The position numbers and the translations under genes are program-made. Source: Megamerina dolium (lineage: Eukaryota > Arthropoda > Insecta > Diptera > Megamerinidae). From it: a stretch of DNA of 64,000 bases. Shown here in pieces: positions 1 through 61,269 of this stretch (its first letter is position 1; each line of letters opens with the position of its first letter). Under the pieces are notes generated by a model, which searched no databases, was not told where the DNA came from, and saw only the letters and a list, made by a program, of their open reading frames with translations. The stretch is taken from positions 37,201,540 through 37,265,539 of the forward strand of contig OY978527.1 of NCBI GenBank assembly GCA_963854835.1, read 5' to 3'.

Positions 1-383
1 AGGCTTAAAGTGACCATCTGTACATACAAATGATGATTTTATATCTATTGTATCTATGTTTTGCATACAATTATTGTGCTCGTTGCAATTAAATATGTAC
101 ATTTGAATGAATTCTTCATGGGTAATTCTTGTTGTTCTTTTTTTTTTTATGATACAATTAGTTAATGTTGTGGTTCATTGTACCTTTGCATGTATTGTAT
201 ATAATAAATTAAATAAAAATTATTATTATTAAATAAAATTATTATTATTAGTAAATGTTAGATGTCGCAGTTAGTAGGTTTTCTATGCATTATATTCTAA
301 AAATCAAATCAAATAAATGTAAATTTATTCTTTCAAATGATACCGACCACTCAAAATTTATCATAAAATAGCTCAGAAAATAG

Positions 384-730
384 TGGGTGCCATAGCTCAG
401 TGGTTAGCGCGTTGACCTTCTGATCTGTAGGTCGTGGGTTCAATCCCCGGCTGAAGCATAACAAAATTTGAAATCGAAAAGATTTTTCTTTCGAACGGTA
501 CCCACCTGCCGACAAGATTTGGCAAATTTTCCGGCAGTAACAATTTGCCACAAATGCTTCTTCAAAGAGCTCTGTGACTAAACTAAGTTAAAGTGATGTC
601 ACAAGGGTTCTGCCGTTCGGAACCAGCTAATATAAGTAGGTGCCTTCTAATGCTGTCCAAATTTAATACGCACAACAGTATTGGAAGAAAAAGCTCGGTA
701 GTATCACAATGGACCTTTCTGACCTAAGTG
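384..730 (+). mobile_element. tRNA-related SINE, subfamily A copy 1 (no terminal tail)
   Basis: Begins with a tRNA-like head, GGGTGCCATAGCTCAGTGG (A box) followed about 30 nt later by GGGTTCAATCCCC (B box). The body contains TTTCTTTCGAACGGTACCCA, GGTTCTGCCGTTCGGAACC and CACAACAGTATTGGAAG. It stops at GACCTAAGTG, before the hairpin and tail seen in longer copies. A 5-bp AATAG on both sides may be a short target duplication. The pol III boxes mark it as a SINE; it is too degenerate and long to be a tRNA gene. Confidence 0.85.
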
Positions 731-924
731 AATAGAATCCTTTCAAAACTGTTCACACTTTTTGAAAAAAATCTCCTTCATTATAATTTTCTATAATTTT
801 ATTTATTTAATTGTTAGATGGTGATCAATCTAGAGATTTCCTTTTAAGACGCAGCTTATTTTGACACTAACAACTCGAAATATTGACTGTCAGTCAGTAG
901 AGTATCTTCGCGAAACCAAATAAA

Positions 925-7384: not shown

Positions 7385-7849
7385 TATGAGGACGGTCCCA
7401 AAACTACCCTACCAGACATATAGATGGCGGCAGTCGTTTGAAAAAAATTACTTTGGTGAAAAGTGGCAACGTATAAAACATATGTTTCAAGTTTCAAGGC
7501 GCCACTTTTTTTAGTATTTTTTTTTTTGGAGTCATCGAAAGTTAAAGACCAGTGAATTTGTAAACATAGAAAAAATTGGTCACCGTTATGTATTTCAATA
7601 CTTTCATTTGAAAGATCTCAGTCCAACGAATATTAAAGCCGAACTAGATTCTACTCTGGGGGAATCTGCTCCTTCGTTTACGGCCCTTAAATGTTGGGTG
7701 CCAAAGTTTAAACGAGGTCGTAAGAGCTGCCAAGACGAACACCGTAGTGGTCGACCAATTGAGGTGGCCACGCCAGAAACGGTTAAGAAAATCCACAAAA
7801 TAGTATTGGATGATCGCCGGCTGAAGGTGCGTGAGCTATGTGAAATTAC

Positions 7850-10800
7850 TTACATATTTACTTATGTGGCCATAACAACCGAATATCGATTTAGGTCGAA
7901 AATAACATGCTTCGCCAGCCATCTCTGTTCTTCGCTAGCTGGCGCCAGTTAGAAATTCCAAGCGCCGTCAGGTTCTCCAGTACTTGGTCCTCCAGCGTGT
8001 TCCGAATATAACACCTTCTTAGCTGGAGCGTGTTCTTCCATTCGCTCGACATGACCTAGCCAGCGCAGCCGCTGGATTTTGATGCGCTTTACTATGTCAA
8101 TATCGGCATACAGCTCGTACAGCTCATGGTTGTACCTTATTCGGTACTCGCCATCAACGCAAATAGGTCCAAAGATCTTGCGTAGGACTTTTCTCTCGAA
8201 AACCCCATGCATTCGCTCATCCGAGGTGGAAATTGTCCAGGCTTCAGCGCCATATGTTAGGACAGGCATGATGAGAGACTTGTAGAGTGTAGTTTTCGTT
8301 CTTCGAGAGAGGGCTCGACTTCTCAATTGCTTACTCAGCCCAAAGTAAAACCTGTTAGCAAGAGTTATCCTACGCATGATCTCCAAGCTAACGTCATTAC
8401 TGCTGTTAATGCTGGTTCCAAGATAGACAAAGTCCCTTACTACTTCAAAAGCGTAGTTGTCAACAGTGACGTGCTGCCCAAGACGCCGGGACTCTTTGTT
8501 TGTTGACACTAGATACTTCGTCTTGCCCTCGTTCACCGTGAGACCCATCCGACGCGACTCTCTTTCCAACTCTGAGAATGCTGCACTGACTGCTCGCGTG
8601 TTCATGCCGATTACGTCAATATCATCGGCATACGCTAACAGCATGACACTTTTGTTGAAGATAGTGCCATTATGTCGTAGATCAGCAGCTCGTATTATTT
8701 TCTCCATAATAAGATTGAAGAAGTCGCACGATAACGAATCACCTTGTCTGAAACCCCGTTCGGTATTAAACGGTGCGGAGAGGTCCTTCCCAATTTTCAC
8801 TGCACAACGGGAGTTATGCAGTGTCATTCTACAAAGTCGAATGAGCTTTGCAGGAATACCGAACTCAGACATTGTTGCATAGAGGTAATCCCTTACCGGA
8901 CTGTCGAAAGCGGCTTTATAATCAACAAATAGGTGGTGTGTTTCGATCTGATTTTCTTGGGTCTTCTCCAGGATTTGGCGCAGTGTGAAAATCTGGTCGA
9001 TGGTGGATTTACCAGGTCTGAAGCCACACTGATACGGTCCAATCAGGTTGCTGAGCATAGGCTTCAACCTTTCACACAGTACGCTCGATAAAACCTTGTA
9101 TGCGATACTCAGGAGACTTATTCCACGGTAGTTGGCGCAAATTGTGGGGTCTCCTTTTTTATGTACAGGACAGAGAACACTGAGCCTCCAATCATCAGGC
9201 ATGCTTTCATCCGACCATATTCTGCTTATGAGCTGGTGAATGCGGGTGAGCAGCTCATCGCCTCCGGTCTTAAACAACTCGGCAGGCAGGCCATCAGTAC
9301 CTGCAGCTTTGTTGTTCTTCAGCCTTAAAATGGCCGTTTCAACCTCGTCGTAGTCGGGTGGTGGAATATCAACACCATCATCTGTAATTGGGGTTATCGG
9401 GCAAACTCCTCCACTGGCGGAATTGTTCGTAGCATCGCCATTCAGTAACGTGGAGAAGTGTTCCCTCCATAGGCTCAGTACACTCTGGTATCCGTAACCA
9501 GATTCCCATTTCCATCACGACAAGAAGAGGCTCCGGGGTTTAAACCTCCACTCAGGCGCTTGATCTTTTCAAAGAATTTTCGAGTCTCATTCTTGTCGGT
9601 ACACATCTCTATCTCCTCACACTCGCGTCTTCCAACTCCCTCTTCTTGCGCCTGAAAAGACGTCTCTCTGCACTCCTTTTCTCTCTATACCGATCCTTAA
9701 CAGCTCGCGTTGCGCCTGCACGCAGGGTTTTTCTGTAGGCGGCGTCTTTCTCTGCGGTAGCGTCGCGACACTCCTGATCATACAACTCATTCCTCAGAGG
9801 CCGGTAGTAACCGATTACCTCCTCGGCAGCAGTAGTCATGGAGTGGGATATATGTGTCCACCGTGCGCATGTATCATCAAGTGGGGGAGTGTTCTGCATA
9901 AGCAGATCCGATAGTCGAGTGGAAAATGCATCTGCTGTCTCTGGTGATCGCAGCTTACTGACGTCGAGCTTTCTCTGTGTGGGGCTTCTCTTGTTATTTG
10001 CGACACATAGGCGTGTGCGCACCTTAGCTGCAACAAGGTAGTGATCCGAGTCGATGTTGGCACCACGGATCGATTTCACGTCCATCACACTGGAAGCATG
10101 CCTTCCGTCAATCACCACATGATCAATTTGGTTTCTTGTACGTTGATCTGGAGACAGCCATGTCGCTTTGTGGATGTCGAGATGCTGGAATCTGGTACCA
10201 CCAATTACCATGTTTCGTGCTGCGGCGAAGTCGATCAGCCTCATTCCGTTATCGGAGGTGTTCTGGTGGAGGCTGAATTTTCCGACAGTTGGACCAAAGG
10301 TACATTCCTTGCCCACCCTGGCATTAAAGTCGCCAAGCACGATTTTGATATCGTGGCGGGGGCAGCGGTCATAAGCTTCTTCGAGGCGCTGAAAGAAGCT
10401 CTCCTTGGTCACATTGTCCTTCTCATCCGTCGGAGCGTGGGCACATATAAGGCTGATGTTGAAAAATTTTGCCTTGATGCGGATTGTGGCCAGCCGTTCG
10501 TTCACAGGCGTGAACTGTGAGACAAGATATCCATCGCATTTCCTGGAGAGCGGTGATGTCAGCTCTGTATTTTTCGAGGACATCAACCAGCTGGATAGAG
10601 GCACCCTCCCTATAAAGGGACCGGACATTCCAGGTGCATATCCGTAAATCATTGTCCTTTTTTCGTTTGCGGGGGTCATCAACAAAAGCGGTAGTCCTTA
10701 TCCGAGGCATATTTGTTTTTTTTCATTGGGGGGGGTTTTTATGTGTCGGGTCCCAAACCCAACGCACAACCTCTAACCGAGGAGATTTTCGCCACTCACT

Positions 10801-15194: not shown

Positions 15195-16392
15195 CGAGGT
15201 CGGTCCCAGAACTTCCCGACCTAATAAAGAAAACACAATAAATTTGGGGAAATTTTTCTTTATTTCTCAACATAAACTACTTTTAGCTCTTTACACTTTT
15301 CCTAGCGATATTCTATGGCATCAATACCATGTTTATAGTATGATCTGTCTAGCTCATTAAAATAGCCATCTACCGCAGACTCCAACTCTTCATTGTTTGC
15401 AAATCTTCTACCACCAAATTTAGAAATAGAAAATAACCCGAAGGAGCTAAATCTGGCGAATAAGGTACGTGCTGAAGCAATTCGAGCTTTAACTCATTGA
15501 TTTTGGCCATTGCAATAGCGGATGTGTGAACTGGTGCATTGTGTTGATGAAACAAAACTTTCTTTTTCGCCAAATGCGGCCTTTTTTCTTTAATTTCATC
15601 ACTTTCATTACGTTCCTCTTTGAAGATAATCAATAAAAATTATCCCACGTGCCACATAACGTTACCTGCAGAAGGAACTGTCTTCGCCTTCTTTGGACAC
15701 GATTCTCCTCTTTTAGTCCACTGTTTTGACTGCTCCTTTGTCTCAGGTGTGAAGTGGTGGACCCACGTCTCAGCCATGGTTACAAATCTACGCAAAAACT
15801 CGGCTTTATTACTGTGAAACATCGCCAAACACTCTATATAAACATCTTCACGACGTTGTTATGTGTTCTATTGTGAGCAAACGCGGCACCCACCAAATAC
15901 GATGTATAGCACTTTTTGAAATGCCTGTAATTTCATCTAGCTCACGCACCTTCAGCCGGCGATCATCCAATACCATTTTGTGGATTTTCTTAACCGTTTC
16001 TGGCGTGGCCACCTCAATTGGTCGACCCCTGTGGTGTTCGTCTTGGCAGCTTGTACGACCTCGTTTAAACTCGCCACCCAATATTTTATGATCGTGAATG
16101 AAGGAGCAGACTCCCCCAGAGTAGAATCTAGTTGGGATTAAATATTCGTTGGACTGACACCTTTCAAATGAAAGTATTGAATAACATAACGGTGACCAAT
16201 TTTTTCCATGTTTACAAATTCACTGAAGTCGTTAATTATCGATGGCTCAAAAGAAAATACTAAACAACGTGGCGCCTTGAAACTTAAACCATATGTTTTA
16301 TAAGGTTGATACTTTTCACCAAAGTAATTTTTTTCAAACTACTGCCGCCATCTACATATATGTCAGGTCGGGTAGTTCTGGGACCGCCCTCG
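15195..16392 (-). mobile_element. Second copy of the TGAGGAC-type mariner, minus strand
   Basis: TIRs match the 7387 element (CGAGGTCGGTCCCAGAAC at left, inverse CGAGGGCGGTCCCAGAAC at right), TA at 15193-15194 and 16393-16394. Frames give DEHHRGRPIEVATPETVKK, ETWVHHFTPETKEQSKQWT, HQHNAPVHTS and YSPDLAPSGYFLF. The aspartate of HQDNAPxH is H and that of PSDYF is G, and frameshifts break the ORF, so it is dead. The middle part with the FIDYLxKG block is deleted. Confidence 0.92.
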
Positions 16393-26355: not shown

Positions 26356-27519
26356 CCCTGCAAAAAATGTGACTTGTCCGGAATGTGTCCCGGATCAGTC
26401 GCAAATCGCTGTATATGAAATGAAATGTTCACTTTTGTTCGAGTATGACCTATGAGGATACCAATTGTACCCTTTTATACCCGAACGGGTATAAATGTAG
26501 ATTAGTCGCACCGTTAGAAATTTTCACTCAATGAATTATAATTCGCATGTACATTTTCGTTTCAATTTTTTTGGCAATTAGTCGCACGGTTAGAAATTTT
26601 CATCCAATGTATTATAATTCTCAAGTACATTTTCATTTCAATTATTTGACAATTTACCCATTTTTGCACTTCGCCGCTATTCAAAATCAAAAAAATTTAT
26701 TTTCATTAATTGCATTATAATTCTCGTATAAATAACAATTTTTTTATTTTAATTTGTCGTGATTCGAACCTGGCTACAAAGTACTGGTCAAAGAATTTAT
26801 TTTCATTCATTGCATTATAAGGTGGGTGCTGTAACTCAGTGGTTAGTGCGTTGGCCTTTTGATCTGTAGGTCGTGGGTTCAATCCCCGACTGAAGCATAA
26901 GAAAATTTAATATCGAAAAGATTTTTCTTTCGAACGGTACCCACTTGCCGGCAAGAATTGGCAGTTTTTCCGGCAGTAACAATTTGCAAAAAATGCTTCT
27001 TAAAAGAGCTTTGGGACAAAACTAAGTTAAAGTGATGTCACAAGGGTTCTGCCATTCGGAACCGGCGAATATCAGTAGGTCCCTTCTAATGCTATCCAAA
27101 TTTAACACGCACAACAGTATTGGAAGAGAAGCTCGGTGGTATCACAATGGACATTTCTGGCCTAAGTGTGTCCTCTCAGAGAGAGGGCAGCCACATAACC
27201 TAACCTAACTAACCGATTGCATTATAAATTCCGATTCATATATTTCAAATTTAAATGTACAAATAAAATTTACGTATTTTCTGGTATTCTCCTCGGATTG
27301 GGACCTGAATACCCAACATCGTGCGTTTTGCTATCGTATGTTCTATCACCGTCGCTCTACCACCGACCCTAACCTGTGACATGTTAATTCAGACTTAAAA
27401 GGAAATCACTTGAAAGTATAGAAAATCTCCAAATATATTAATTAATTTAAAAATTGATCTGTAAAAGATGAATCCGGGACTACTCTCTTTAGAGATTAGT
27501 CGCACAATTTTTTGCAGGG
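26356..27519. mobile_element. TIR element (CCCTGCAAAAA type), copy interrupted by a SINE
   Basis: Left end CCCTGCAAAAAATGTGAC and right end GTCGCACAATTTTTTGCAGGG are terminal inverted repeats. Without the SINE (388 bp plus duplication) it is about 760 bp and non-coding. It holds an imperfect tandem duplication of about 75 bp (26503-26577 and 26578-26653) and GTGATTCGAACCTGG, an inverted pol III B-box-like site. Superfamily not identified; no target duplication recognised. Confidence 0.65.
26821..27208 (+). mobile_element. Full-length SINE subfamily A with 12-bp target duplication
   Basis: Complete element: head GGTGGGTGCTGTAACTCAG, B box GGGTTCAATCCCC, body, then CACAATGG...GGCCTAAGTG, a hairpin at 27172-27186 (CCTCTC, loop AGA, GAGAGG), GGCAGCCACAT and a tail of AACCT units. 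Flanked by ATTGCATTATAA at 26809-26820 and 27209-27220. It interrupts a TIR element that continues on both sides. Confidence 0.92.
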
Positions 27520-33694: not shown

Positions 33695-34372
33695 TTGGTA
33701 CAAAACGACTAGTTAGGTAGGGTGTTTGCCTGACAATTCACCAAGTAGTGTCAGAGACCCATTGTGATACGACTGAAACTAGGCCTTACCAAACCGGGTC
33801 TTCTATGAGCCAACCTGTGGATTTAATCTGTGATACTATTTTAATTACTTTTATATGAGCAACCTCCTATATGTCACCAAGGGAGACAGTTCCAAATGTT
33901 ATGCTTAGAGCCCGACATCCACACAGGAGATGTTCTACTGTTTCTTCTTTCTCCATATTTTGGCAGCTACTGCAGTAGTCATGAAAAGGTCTATTCGCTT
34001 GTCTACCAAGGAGGCAGTTACATGTTAGAACCCAAGTCGTCTACATTCTGGCCATGTTAATCTATTGTTTAAGCAGTTACCATTTCGTCTCCAGATCGTG
34101 TTAGCACTATCGATAGTGCACCTATCTATCAGTAATTTACAAGTTGCTTGTGGCATTGGCACTGAAACTTTATCCGAGTGGCATGTTGACGTTGTGCTAT
34201 GGCTGGCTAGCACATCCGCCATACCGTTGCCTTTAAAGTCTCTGCGGCCTGGTACTCAAAGTCGGTGGATTTTTAAGTAATTAGCTATTTCAATTAGTAG
34301 TACGTGGCAGTCTATAACTGTCTTTGATGAATGCCTACTCGATTGTAATAAATTTAGGGCTACATGTCTATA
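33695..34372 (-). pseudogene. LINE 3' end (RNase H and CCHC-like motif), minus strand
   Basis: Minus-strand: SSKTVIDCHVLLIEIANYLK, then GNGMADVLASHSTT (RNase H C-terminal motif), CLNNRLTWPECRRLGF, and CSSCQNMEKEETVEHLLCGC (Cys/His motif). Its 3' untranslated end contains TATCACAATGGGTCTCTGA, a CTGACA/TGTCAG stem at 33730-33754 and a CCCTACCTAAC terminus. Confidence 0.85.
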
Positions 34373-34761
34373 GTGTGGGTGCCGTAGCTCAGTGGTTACT
34401 GCGTTGGCCTTCTGATCTGTAGGTCGTGGGCTCAATCCCCGGCTGAAACATAACAAAATTTTATATCGAAAGATTTTTCTTTCGAACGGTACCTACCTGC
34501 CGGCAAGAATTGGCAATTTTTCCGGCAGTAACAATTTTCCAATAATGCTTCTTAAAAGAGCTCTGTTACAAAACTAAATCAAAGTGATGTCACAAGCGTT
34601 CTGCCGTTCGAAACCGGCTAATATAAGTAGGTCCCTTCTAATGCTGTCCAAATTTAACACGCACAACAGAATTGGAAGATAAGCTCGGTGGTATCACAAT
34701 GGGCCTTTCTGGCCTAAGTGAGTCCTCTCAGAGAAAGGGCAGCCCCATAACCTATCCTAAC
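34373..34761 (+). mobile_element. Full-length SINE subfamily A with 13-bp target duplication
   Basis: Head GGGTGCCGTAGCTCAGTGG, intact B box, full body, CACAATGGGCC then GGCCTAAGTG (34711-34720), hairpin, GGGCAGCCCCATAACC tail. Flanked by CTACATGTCTATA at 34360-34372 and 34762-34774. It lies between two LINE fragments of opposite orientation. Confidence 0.93.
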
Positions 34762-34774
34762 CTACATGTCTATA

Positions 34775-35650
34775 TGAATAATGGTAAATTTCCTACGAAT
34801 CAACCACTATTTCAGTGTCTTCCAAGCAGACATTAAGGCAATAGACGTAGCCATATCAATAGTCAGAGAATACAAAATCTGCATGAGAGATATTCGAATT
34901 ATCTCTGCAAGCCAAGCTGCTATCAAAGCACTTGGATCACACATCTTAATATCTAAGACCACGATTCACTGCCGCGGATCTCTCGTTGAGATGGCTGAGC
35001 AGTGTAATCTGCACCTAATGTGGTTGCCGGGTCATAGTGACATTCCAGGCAATTGCAGGGTGGACGAACCAACCAGAAATGGCACTACACTAGAACTCTC
35101 CCCTGATTTTGCAAGCATGGACACTCCATTGAGCCACCTGTAAACTAACAATAAAAGGGAGAATGACAGACAAGACAAAAGACCTCTAGACAAGCTCTAT
35201 CACGGGTAAGAGCACGTAACAGATCTGCCCACGACTAGACTGGAACCGCACAAAAAGTCTGCTCAATCTAGGTAGAAGCGTGTTGACGGTCACGACTGGA
35301 GTAATAACAGGCCACAGGGTTCTTGGCATATATGCTAGAAGGATAGGATTGGGCCACCTAACACACGGCTTTTGCAGAAGCTGCAGATATGAGGAAGAAG
35401 AGGAGTCAATCCTACACTTAATGTGTTCATGCCCAGCACTTTGCCGCAGGCGCATGTCACATGTAGGTTTCCACAATTCAGCCAGCCTCACTAGTCTTTC
35501 AACAGCAAAAATGAGGAATCTCACACGCTTCATTTTAAGCTCAAAATGGTTGGAGTTAGCGAGTTAGGGTTAGAGACCATGTGGTAACACAATGAGCCTA
35601 TGATGGCCTAAGTGTGCCCCTTGGGGGCAGCCACCCCGCACCTATCCATG
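34775..35650 (+). pseudogene. LINE 3' region (RNase H to 3' end), plus strand
   Basis: Open at 34781-35143: FQADIKAIDVAISIVREYKI, ISASQAAIKALGSHI, LMWLPGHSDIPGNCRVDEPT (RNase H). Then 35280-35567: VLTVTTGVITGHRVLGIYAR, FCRSCRYEEEEESILHLMCS (Cys/His motif) to the stop at 35565-35567. The 3' untranslated part has CACAATGAGCC, GGCCTAAGTG (35605-35614), a hairpin at 35615-35629 and GCACCTATCC at the end. It is 5'-truncated, and one break lies between the two frames. This is the best LINE 3' end in the window for comparison with the SINEs. Confidence 0.88.
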
Positions 35651-37130: not shown

Positions 37131-37140
37131 TATATGATAT

Positions 37141-37513
37141 GGGTGCCGTAGCTCAGTGGTTAGTGTGTTCGCCTTCTGATCTGTAGGTCGTGGTTCAATC
37201 CCCGGCTGATGCATAACAAATTTAATATCGATAAGATATTAAATTTGTAATTAGATAAGTACCCACCTGTCGGCAAGCAATTGGCAATTCTTCCGACAGC
37301 AACAACTTGCCATGAAAAAGTTTCTTAAAGAACTCTGTGACAAAGCTCAGAAAAAGTGATGTCACAAGTGTTCTGCCGTTCGGAACCGGCTAAAATAAGT
37401 AGGTCCCTTCTAACACTGTCCAACTTTAAGACGCACAACAGTAATGGAAGAGAAGCTCTGCCAATGAGCCCTTTGGGGCTTTAAGTGCCACATATTTATT
37501 TTTATTTTTTATT
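37141..37513 (+). mobile_element. SINE subfamily B with 10-bp target duplication
   Basis: Same head (GGGTGCCGTAGCTCAGTGG) and body, but the 3' end differs: CCAATGAGCCCTTTGGGGC, then TTTAAGTGCCACAT, and a T-rich stretch instead of the AACCT tail. Flanked by TATATGATAT at 37131-37140 and 37514-37523. Confidence 0.88.
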
Positions 37514-58505: not shown

Positions 58506-58657
58506 AGTATGAAGATTTTAATAAAAACAAATATTTGGTAATACAGTTTTACCAACAAAAAATTTTCAGCACAGTTCGTTTTTATTTCAGGAGTTATACT
58601 CGTATATACTGAAACTTTTCACAAAATTGAGCTATATGAAAAAAAAAAATTAATAAA

Positions 58658-59006
58658 TATGTGGCACTTAAAGCCCCAAAGGGCTCATTGGCCGAGCTTC
58701 TCTTCCATTACTGTTGTGCCTCTTAAATTTTTGGACAGTATTAGAATGGACCTACTTATTTTAGCAGGTTCCGAACGGCAGAACCCTTGTGACATCACTT
58801 TTTCTGAGCTTTGTCACAGAGTTCTTTTAGAAGCTTTTTCATGGCAAGTTGTTACTGTCGGAAGAATTGCCAATTGCTTGCCGACAGGTGGGTACCGTTC
58901 GAAAGAAAAATCTTTTCGATATTAAATTTGTTATGCATCAGCCGGGTATTGAACCACGACCTACAGATCAGAAGGCGAACACACTAACCACTGAGCTACG
59001 GCACCC
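58658..59006 (-). mobile_element. SINE subfamily B, minus strand
   Basis: Same 3' end type as the 37141 copy (ATGTGGCACTTAAAGCCCC at the left, inverted). Right end is the head, GAGCTACGGCACCC. Body with CCGAACGGCAGAACCC and GCCGACAGGTGGGTACCG. Target duplication not clear. Confidence 0.85.
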
Positions 59007-60941: not shown

Positions 60942-61269
60942 TGGGTGCCGTAGCTCAGTAGTTAGTGCTTTGGCCTTCTGATCTGTAAGTCGTGGGTTCA
61001 ATTCCCTGCTGAAGCATAACAAAATTTGATATCGAAAAGATTTTTCTTTCGAACGGTACCCGCCTGCTTCTTAAAAGAGGTCTGTGACAAAACTAAGTTA
61101 AAGTGATGTCACAAGGGTTCTGCCGTTCGGAACCGGATAATATAAGTAGGGACCTTCTAATGCTGTCCACATTTAACACACAACAGTATTGGAAGAGAAG
61201 CTAGGTGGTATCGCAATGGCCTAAGTGTTTCCTCTCAGAGAGAGGGCAGCCAAATAACCTAACCTAACC
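60942..61269 (+). mobile_element. SINE subfamily A with 13-bp target duplication and internal deletion
   Basis: Head TGGGTGCCGTAGCTCAGTAG, B box, body lacking the TGCCGGCAAGAATTGGC part, then GGCCTAAGTG, the CCTCTC/GAGAGG hairpin and an AACCT tail. Flanked by TATCACTTTCATC at 60929-60941 and 61270-61282. Confidence 0.9.

Follow-up and report, generated by a model that had tools for sequence, protein, structure and literature searches.

A probably tRNA-derived SINE and six LINE families share a 3′ end with a common predicted three-helix fold in a higher fly, Megamerina dolium

In a 64,000-nucleotide stretch of the Megamerina dolium genome (GenBank assembly GCA_963854835.1, contig OY978527.1; hereafter the window), a SINE lies between the remnants of two RNase H-type LINEs, LINE-C on the minus strand and LINE-A on the plus strand (Table 1). 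The SINE and LINE-A, which ends at about 35650, share their last ~75 nt: CACAATG is found at 34695 in the SINE and at 35588 in LINE-A, and it is followed by GGCCTAAGTG 16 nt later in the former and 17 nt later in the latter. Is this common end due to homology, and would the enzyme of such a LINE have copied the SINE? The original prediction took both to be likely, and suggested that the hairpins within the two ends had kept their fold by compensatory change. Both hairpins that it named (CCTCTC/AGA/GAGAGG at 27172-27186 and TGCCCC/TTG/GGGGCA at 35615-35629) are found at those positions, and it was right to take the first from the SINE copy at 27 kb, because the copy at 34373 carries substitutions in the stem.

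Table 1. Features of the SINE and LINE copies in the window, and tail hairpins of the SINE and of the LINE families
Feature	Position	Strand	Remarks
SINE copy	34373-34761	+	~389 bp; tRNA-like head, body, LINE-type tail
5′ target-site duplication of SINE, CTACATGTCTATA	34360-34372	+	exact 13-bp repeat of 34762-34774
3′ target-site duplication of SINE, CTACATGTCTATA	34762-34774	+	
A-box-like motif in SINE head, TAGCTCAGTGG	34385-34395	+	
B-box-like motif in SINE head, GGCTCAATCCC	34429-34439	+	GGTTCAATCCC in other copies
SINE tail module	34688-34746	+	outer helix, helix 1, hairpin arms
SINE tail, outer helix	GTGG 34688-34691 with CCCC 34743-34746	+	CCAC in other copies
SINE tail, helix 1	CAC 34695-34697/GTG 34718-34720; GGCC 34702-34705/GGCC 34711-34714	+	
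SINE tail, hairpin arms	34721-34729/34733-34741	+	this copy carries substitutions
SINE terminal repeat, (CCTAA)n type	34750-34761	+	
Second SINE copy	26822-27209	+	hairpin intact at 27172-27186; blastn within window
Further SINE copy	29316-28949	-	blastn within window
Further SINE copy	60942-61268		76% identical, with gap
SINE copy, 3′-truncated	383-731		
Same SINE body, type 2 tail	37140-37505	+	ends (ATTT)n
Same SINE body, type 2 tail	58640-59006	-	
LINE-A	34775-35650	+	broken 3′ part of RNase H LINE; protein similarity
LINE-A, RNase H stretch	~34796-35140	+	
LINE-A, C-terminal Cys-rich stretch	35220-35567	+	
LINE-A tail	35581-35634	+	GTGG 35581-35584/CCAC 35631-35634; CAC 35588-35590/GTG 35612-35614; hairpin 35615-35629
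LINE-C	33714-34359 (remnant about 33700-34372)	-	3′ part of apparent second RNase H-type LINE, separated by the SINE from LINE-A downstream; by eye from translation
LINE-C, degenerate version of tail	33775-33714	-	blastn within window
Hairpin, SINE			TGTCCTCTC-AGA-GAGAGGGCA; 9 bp
Hairpin, family E			CGCCCTCTC...GAGAGGGCG; nearly the same 9-bp hairpin as SINE, with a C-G instead of a T-A pair at its base
Hairpin, family D			TGCCCTCC...GGGGGCA
Hairpin, family A			TGCCCC-TTC-GGGGCA; 6 bp
Hairpin, family F			CGTC-GCAG-GACA
Hairpin, family G			CGTC-GACA-GACA
Hairpin, family H			CGTC-ATAT-GACA

The SINE is short, non-coding, dispersed and present in high copy number. Two motifs of its head, TAGCTCAGTGG and GGCTCAATCCC, are A-box-like and B-box-like sequences of Pol III promoters. 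The head of one copy (L003) aligns with the whole Rfam tRNA model (positions 1-71 of 71), its 19.9 bits (E 1) falling short of the gathering score, which is 29, and ARAGORN called no tRNA in the window. In the genome searched (500.5 Mb, 8 contigs), the best 40 of 5013 candidates include 39 other copies on contigs C1-C6, nearly full length and 93-94% identical to the window copy. SINE-derived matches occur in 12 of 20 random 10-kb stretches of the genome, and a 29-nt string of the tail, with up to two mismatches, occurs 3281 times (reversed control, 0). In one array (G000:C4:43031219-43063935) each unit holds a SINE that is 93-94% identical to the one in the window, at a spacing of ~2.75-2.9 kb and mostly in one orientation; there the element was apparently spread by segmental or satellite amplification.

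Target-site duplications of at least 6 nt (range 6-16 nt) were found for 18 of the 22 SINE copies tried; the remaining four, one of them (L014) without upstream flank, gave none. Ten of the 18 duplications begin with TA, four with CTA, CCTA or ACCTA, and four with other letters, part of each being ambiguous because the tail can pair with the TA site. The element has both the target-site duplications and the repeat tail of a tRNA-derived SINE, and the duplications are as expected for target-primed reverse transcription.

Regarding the shared 3′ end, blastn within the window pairs the SINE tail with the LINE-A tail at E 5e-4. A covariance model made from 16 LINE-A tails and no SINE was run on 279,148 bases, including six loci added as SINE holders. 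Its E-values, which are rough according to the tool itself, were 4.6e-9 to 2.6e-6 for seven SINE tails, 1.2e-5 for the window copy, 2.3e-5 to 0.98 for five more degenerate SINE tails and 6.8e-7 for one further LINE (L031); two LINE-A tails among the matches were training sequences. When the SINE was aligned with the consensus of each LINE family, scores of 34.5-47.5 were obtained; none of the 2000 shuffles made for each family exceeded 21.5. The covariance-model E-values and the shuffle scores together rule out chance similarity.

A SINE inserted next to the LINE-A stop codon is likewise ruled out as the origin of the LINE-A tail, since the tail follows the end of the open reading frame in other LINE-A copies too. 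The shared blocks belong to the LINE-A consensus: the tail is present in all 20 other copies, which were picked because their alignment reached it, at least four of them (L049, L052, L057, L058) having deletions or strong divergence. On these comparisons the SINE 3′ end is homologous to that of LINEs of the same genome, the LINE consensus included, much as had been predicted.

LINE-A is an old, degenerate family, and its reading frame in the window is broken. The RNase H part matches a Rhagoletis pomonella protein (P0123; 47% over 114 aa) and the C-terminal part another protein (P0122; 59% over 111 aa), both of which have RVT_1 and RNase_H matches; the Pfam RNase_H match of the window copy itself is weak (E 0.009). 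Among the best 40 of 573 candidates, the top-ranking copy other than that of the window reaches 85% identity across positions 34-869 of 880, and shorter matches go up to 90%. The LINE-A consensus ends in GTGGTAACACAATGGGCCTATGATGGCCTAAGTGTGCCCCTTCGGGGCAGCCACCCCATACCTACC.

The same tail is also carried by other LINE families. A LINE-type tail pattern, the spacing of which excludes the standard SINE, has 246 exact matches in the genome (reversed control, 0), some of them SINE variants. The 40 matches fetched, all on C1 and C2, include at least five SINE variants (L116, L119, L121, L127, L129) and several degenerate ones. An earlier exclusion pattern had given six matches: two SINEs, three degenerate or unclear sequences and L073, which led to LINE-D. 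Consensuses were made from 19 copies of family A (L057 was left out), 20 of D, seven of F and four each of E, G and H. Families E to H are known from their 3′ ends alone, LINE-E from the C-terminus onward, and in their copies with a readable end of the reading frame a GWF- or GWL-like end, judged by eye, precedes the tail. A LINE-D fragment, translated with stops read as X, has 19 protein matches, the second and third best of which are P0122 and P0123, at 36-38% over 98-99% of the fragment and carrying RVT_1 and RNase_H; further RNase H proteins matching it are from Episyrphus, Drosophila takahashii and Zeugodacus. The fragment, which is without the RT domain proper, matches RNase_H at E 1.8e-5 with 25.4 bits, just below the Pfam cut-off of 25.8. 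The full-length LINE with such a 3′ end that the original prediction had suggested looking for was not found among the longer stretches (window, L031, L073, L095-L099), all broken or 5′-truncated, nor in four stretches upstream of LINE-D tails.

In alignments with the SINE, the highest-scoring consensuses are those of D and E (47.5 each), ahead of A (37.0), G (36.5), F (35.0) and H (34.5). The terminal repeat is (CCTAA)n in the SINE, D and E, and (CCTA)n in A, F, G and H. By sequence, the families closest to the SINE tail are D and E, not the LINE-A of the window.

A three-helix junction is predicted alike in all seven consensuses (SINE, A, D, E, F, G and H), with an outer GTGG/CCAC helix, a CAC-GGCC/GGCC-GTG arm and a second, variable hairpin; the hairpin layout common to SINE and LINE, as originally noticed, is one arm of this junction. 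About half of the SINE copies have GTGG/CCCC as the outer stem, in which one pair is broken unless it slips to CCAT. For the shuffle test the SINE was folded in the CCAC version, the CCCC version pairing GTGG with the slipped CCAT. With the hairpin alone, mononucleotide shuffles folded as well in 0/1000 cases each for the SINE, E, D and A, and in 28/1000, 8/1000 and 3/1000 for F, G and H, respectively; for whole tails, 0-19 of 500 did so. Among dinucleotide-preserving shuffles, the stability of the 84-nt window LINE-A tail is ordinary (z -0.96; 35/200 fold as well). The fold predicted in seven of seven consensuses indicates that an RNA structure is conserved in the shared SINE/LINE end; the ordinary stability of the window LINE-A tail speaks against it.

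The last hairpin is the most variable part of the tail (Table 1; L049, L052 and L057, in which the automated hairpin search located no tail, are left out of the hairpin comparison). Counted from the base, the SINE and A have T-A at pair 1, D copies have either T-A or T.G, and E has C-G; in F, G and H, the hairpin of which has just 3 bp, this position is an unpaired C.A. Pair 3 is C-G in A, D and E, T-A in F, G and H, and T.G in the SINE. At pair 6, the SINE and E share T-A, A has C-G and D has T.G. These two-sided changes point to covariation between families, in few independent events because F, G and H are likely sisters. Inside LINE-A no covariation above shuffles was found: the proportion of paired cells is 82.7% both observed and shuffled, and one pair has changed on both sides versus 2.2 in shuffles, as is to be expected of decaying copies. 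Compensatory change, as predicted, is thus supported between families and not among the copies of the window family. In two SINE copies (L119 and L121), the tail hairpin has grown into long stretches of (GA)n, apparently by slippage within it.

How, then, would the SINE have been copied? We favor, with a probability of about 0.8 and on the strength of sequence comparison, the view that a D/E-group RNase H LINE recognizes the tail of this tRNA-derived SINE and mobilizes it in trans. The SINE, presumably transcribed by Pol III, would have taken its 3′ end from a D/E-group LINE of the same genome, so that its RNA would end in the three predicted helices followed by (CCTAA)n. The LINE enzyme may bind this fold both in its own RNA and in that of the SINE; priming would occur on the nicked target, often at a TA able to pair with the ...CCTA end, and copying by target-primed reverse transcription would leave the duplications of 6-16 bp. 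By analogy with known systems, a D/E-type enzyme should recognize the tail fold in SINE RNA, and its family may be the partner now or may have been so formerly. Against this reading stand the broken or truncated state of the longer LINE stretches, the GTGG/CCCC outer stems, the reduced hairpin of F, G and H, the ordinary stability of the window LINE-A tail, the small number of covariation events, and loops that differ between the SINE and D and E. Thus, of the mobilization originally proposed, the homologous end and the target-site duplications hold, copying in trans by an RNase H LINE remains the probable course, and the particular LINE of the window drops out.

LINE-A, the neighbor of the SINE and the window's own family, has the blocks and the fold in common with it, but was rejected as the nearest partner on the consensus alignment scores. 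Its terminal repeat is (CCTA)n instead of (CCTAA)n and its hairpin has 6 bp, not 9; moreover, the best other LINE-A copy is 85% identical whereas the best SINE copies reach 93-94%, a rough sign of age only, as both figures come from similarity-ranked lists. That LINE-A is the partner of the SINE is therefore very unlikely. The junctions themselves suggest a different possibility, since CCTA is the end of many copies of the SINE and of LINE-D there, by plain count often at a TA site, and many young SINE copies have a damaged outer stem. Recognition might then be relaxed, with terminal CCTAA repeats or microhomology to the target being sufficient and the upstream fold being a passive relic of the origin of the SINE. 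However, all seven consensuses retain the three helices despite changed stem letters, and a relic leaves the LINEs unexplained, so we consider this unlikely, though less so than a LINE-A partner. It is scarcely credible that the SINE was the source of the LINE tails, or that both obtained theirs from a third element: nothing speaks directly for it, in the LINEs the tail stands after the end of the reading frame in diverged families with different stems and termini, and the SINE body is also known with a different tail.

This other tail (type 2) distinguishes many SINE copies, whose likeness to the window SINE stops at about position 316, the start of the LINE-type tail (type 1). Type 2 copies continue as CCAATGAGCCCTTTGGGGCTTTAAGTGCCACATATTTATTT to an (ATTT)n-like end, unrelated to the type 1 tail. 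The window and the 20 random stretches contain eleven type 2 tails, and one more was found in L002; the type 1 tail continues nine matches in the same window and stretches. For the nine type 2 copies whose head was found, duplications are of 10-15 nt in six and 6-7 nt in two, with none in one. Loci with the type 2 subfamily include L030, L032, L034, L039, L042, L043 and L046. No LINE with a type 2 tail was recognized among 12 of 93 exclusion-pattern matches, of which eight have the SINE body and four the tail without it. One SINE body carries two unrelated tails, and the tails therefore seem to behave as exchangeable modules. We would put at a little below even odds the wider proposal that the three-helix tail is a common template-recognition signal of the whole RNase H LINE group in higher flies, with a hairpin that drifts between families through compensatory change, and that one SINE body switched partners by swapping this module for the unrelated (ATTT)n tail recognized by a different LINE.

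The window holds other elements as well. A large remnant of another LINE (7949-10697, minus strand) has an RVT_1 match (E 3.3e-33) in one reading frame and a weak match to an endonuclease in another, and segments related to it recur at ~12.6, 18.3, 42.3 and 54.5 kb. The remnants at 7515-7952 and 15848-16219 we presume, from their look, to be mariner transposase. The OTUD6B gene of the window shares 61-65% identity, along most of the gene, with its counterparts in Tephritidae (Zeugodacus, Ceratitis, Bactrocera, Anastrepha, Rhagoletis, Eurosta), compared with 56-60% for calyptrate flies, among them Calliphora, Lucilia and Musca; this places the host near Tephritidae among the higher flies.

LINEs of the I clade carry RNase H. 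The Gecko SINE of Aedes aegypti, with its I-clade LINEs (MosquI, I-74_AAe), is, as here, a dipteran tRNA-derived SINE sharing a LINE 3′ end, and it is the sole protostome pair in the table of a survey that counted 58 SINEs with LINE tails (PMC3747384). The host here is instead a higher fly, and the likeness is one of description rather than of Gecko sequence or LINE clade placement. The principle that a SINE and a LINE share a tail is already known: a shared tail is regarded as the means by which SINEs recruit the LINE machinery, and experiments in eel support this (PMC3747384). In the stringent-type systems UnaSINE/UnaL2 of eel and ZfL2 of zebrafish, a 3′ stem-loop is likewise recognized by the enzyme, and the end of UnaL2 in short (TGTAA) repeats resembles the repeat end seen here (PMC3747384, PMC4176376, from excerpts). 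These systems have a single stem-loop and L2-type LINEs, in contrast to the three-helix junction predicted here, and are set beside it by description, not by sequence. The zebrafish LINE ORF2 protein binds the stem of its cognate tail stem-loop generally and the loop specifically (PMC4176376, excerpt). The loops of the SINE and of D and E differ, which is not predicted by the zebrafish model, where the loop gives specificity.

Two further pairs are similar in part. HaSE1 of Helicoverpa armigera is likewise an insect tRNA-derived SINE with a LINE-type tail, but its partner HaRTE1.1 is an RTE LINE that ends in TGA repeats, unlike the LINEs described here (PMC3272025, excerpt). The plant L1-clade pair ZmSINE2 and LINE1-1_ZM likewise has a hairpin that compensatory changes preserve while its stem letters vary (PMC3747384), but belongs to another clade and has one hairpin. 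Further SINEs with LINE tails have been described in Lepidoptera (PMC3272025, PMC8010984), and the exchange of SINE tails as such has been mentioned (PMC8010984), in the portions of these papers at hand. A literature search, at the level of titles and of incomplete coverage, recognized no SINE in tephritoid or other brachyceran flies. As far as the literature searched goes, the higher-fly pair, the three-helix tail common to several such LINE families and this particular tail exchange look new.

Reportedly, no SINE has been found in Drosophila (PMC7334843), and SINEs make up <1% of transposable-element content in most dipterans (PMC6327564). Against this scarcity, M. dolium is a higher fly with thousands of SINE tails of one type, as counted by the tail string. 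LINE families with the same predicted fold and different stems, together with a SINE that appears to track one group of them, would amount to a natural mutagenesis of template choice by RNase H LINEs, and the two tails on one SINE body may provide a direct test of partner switching.
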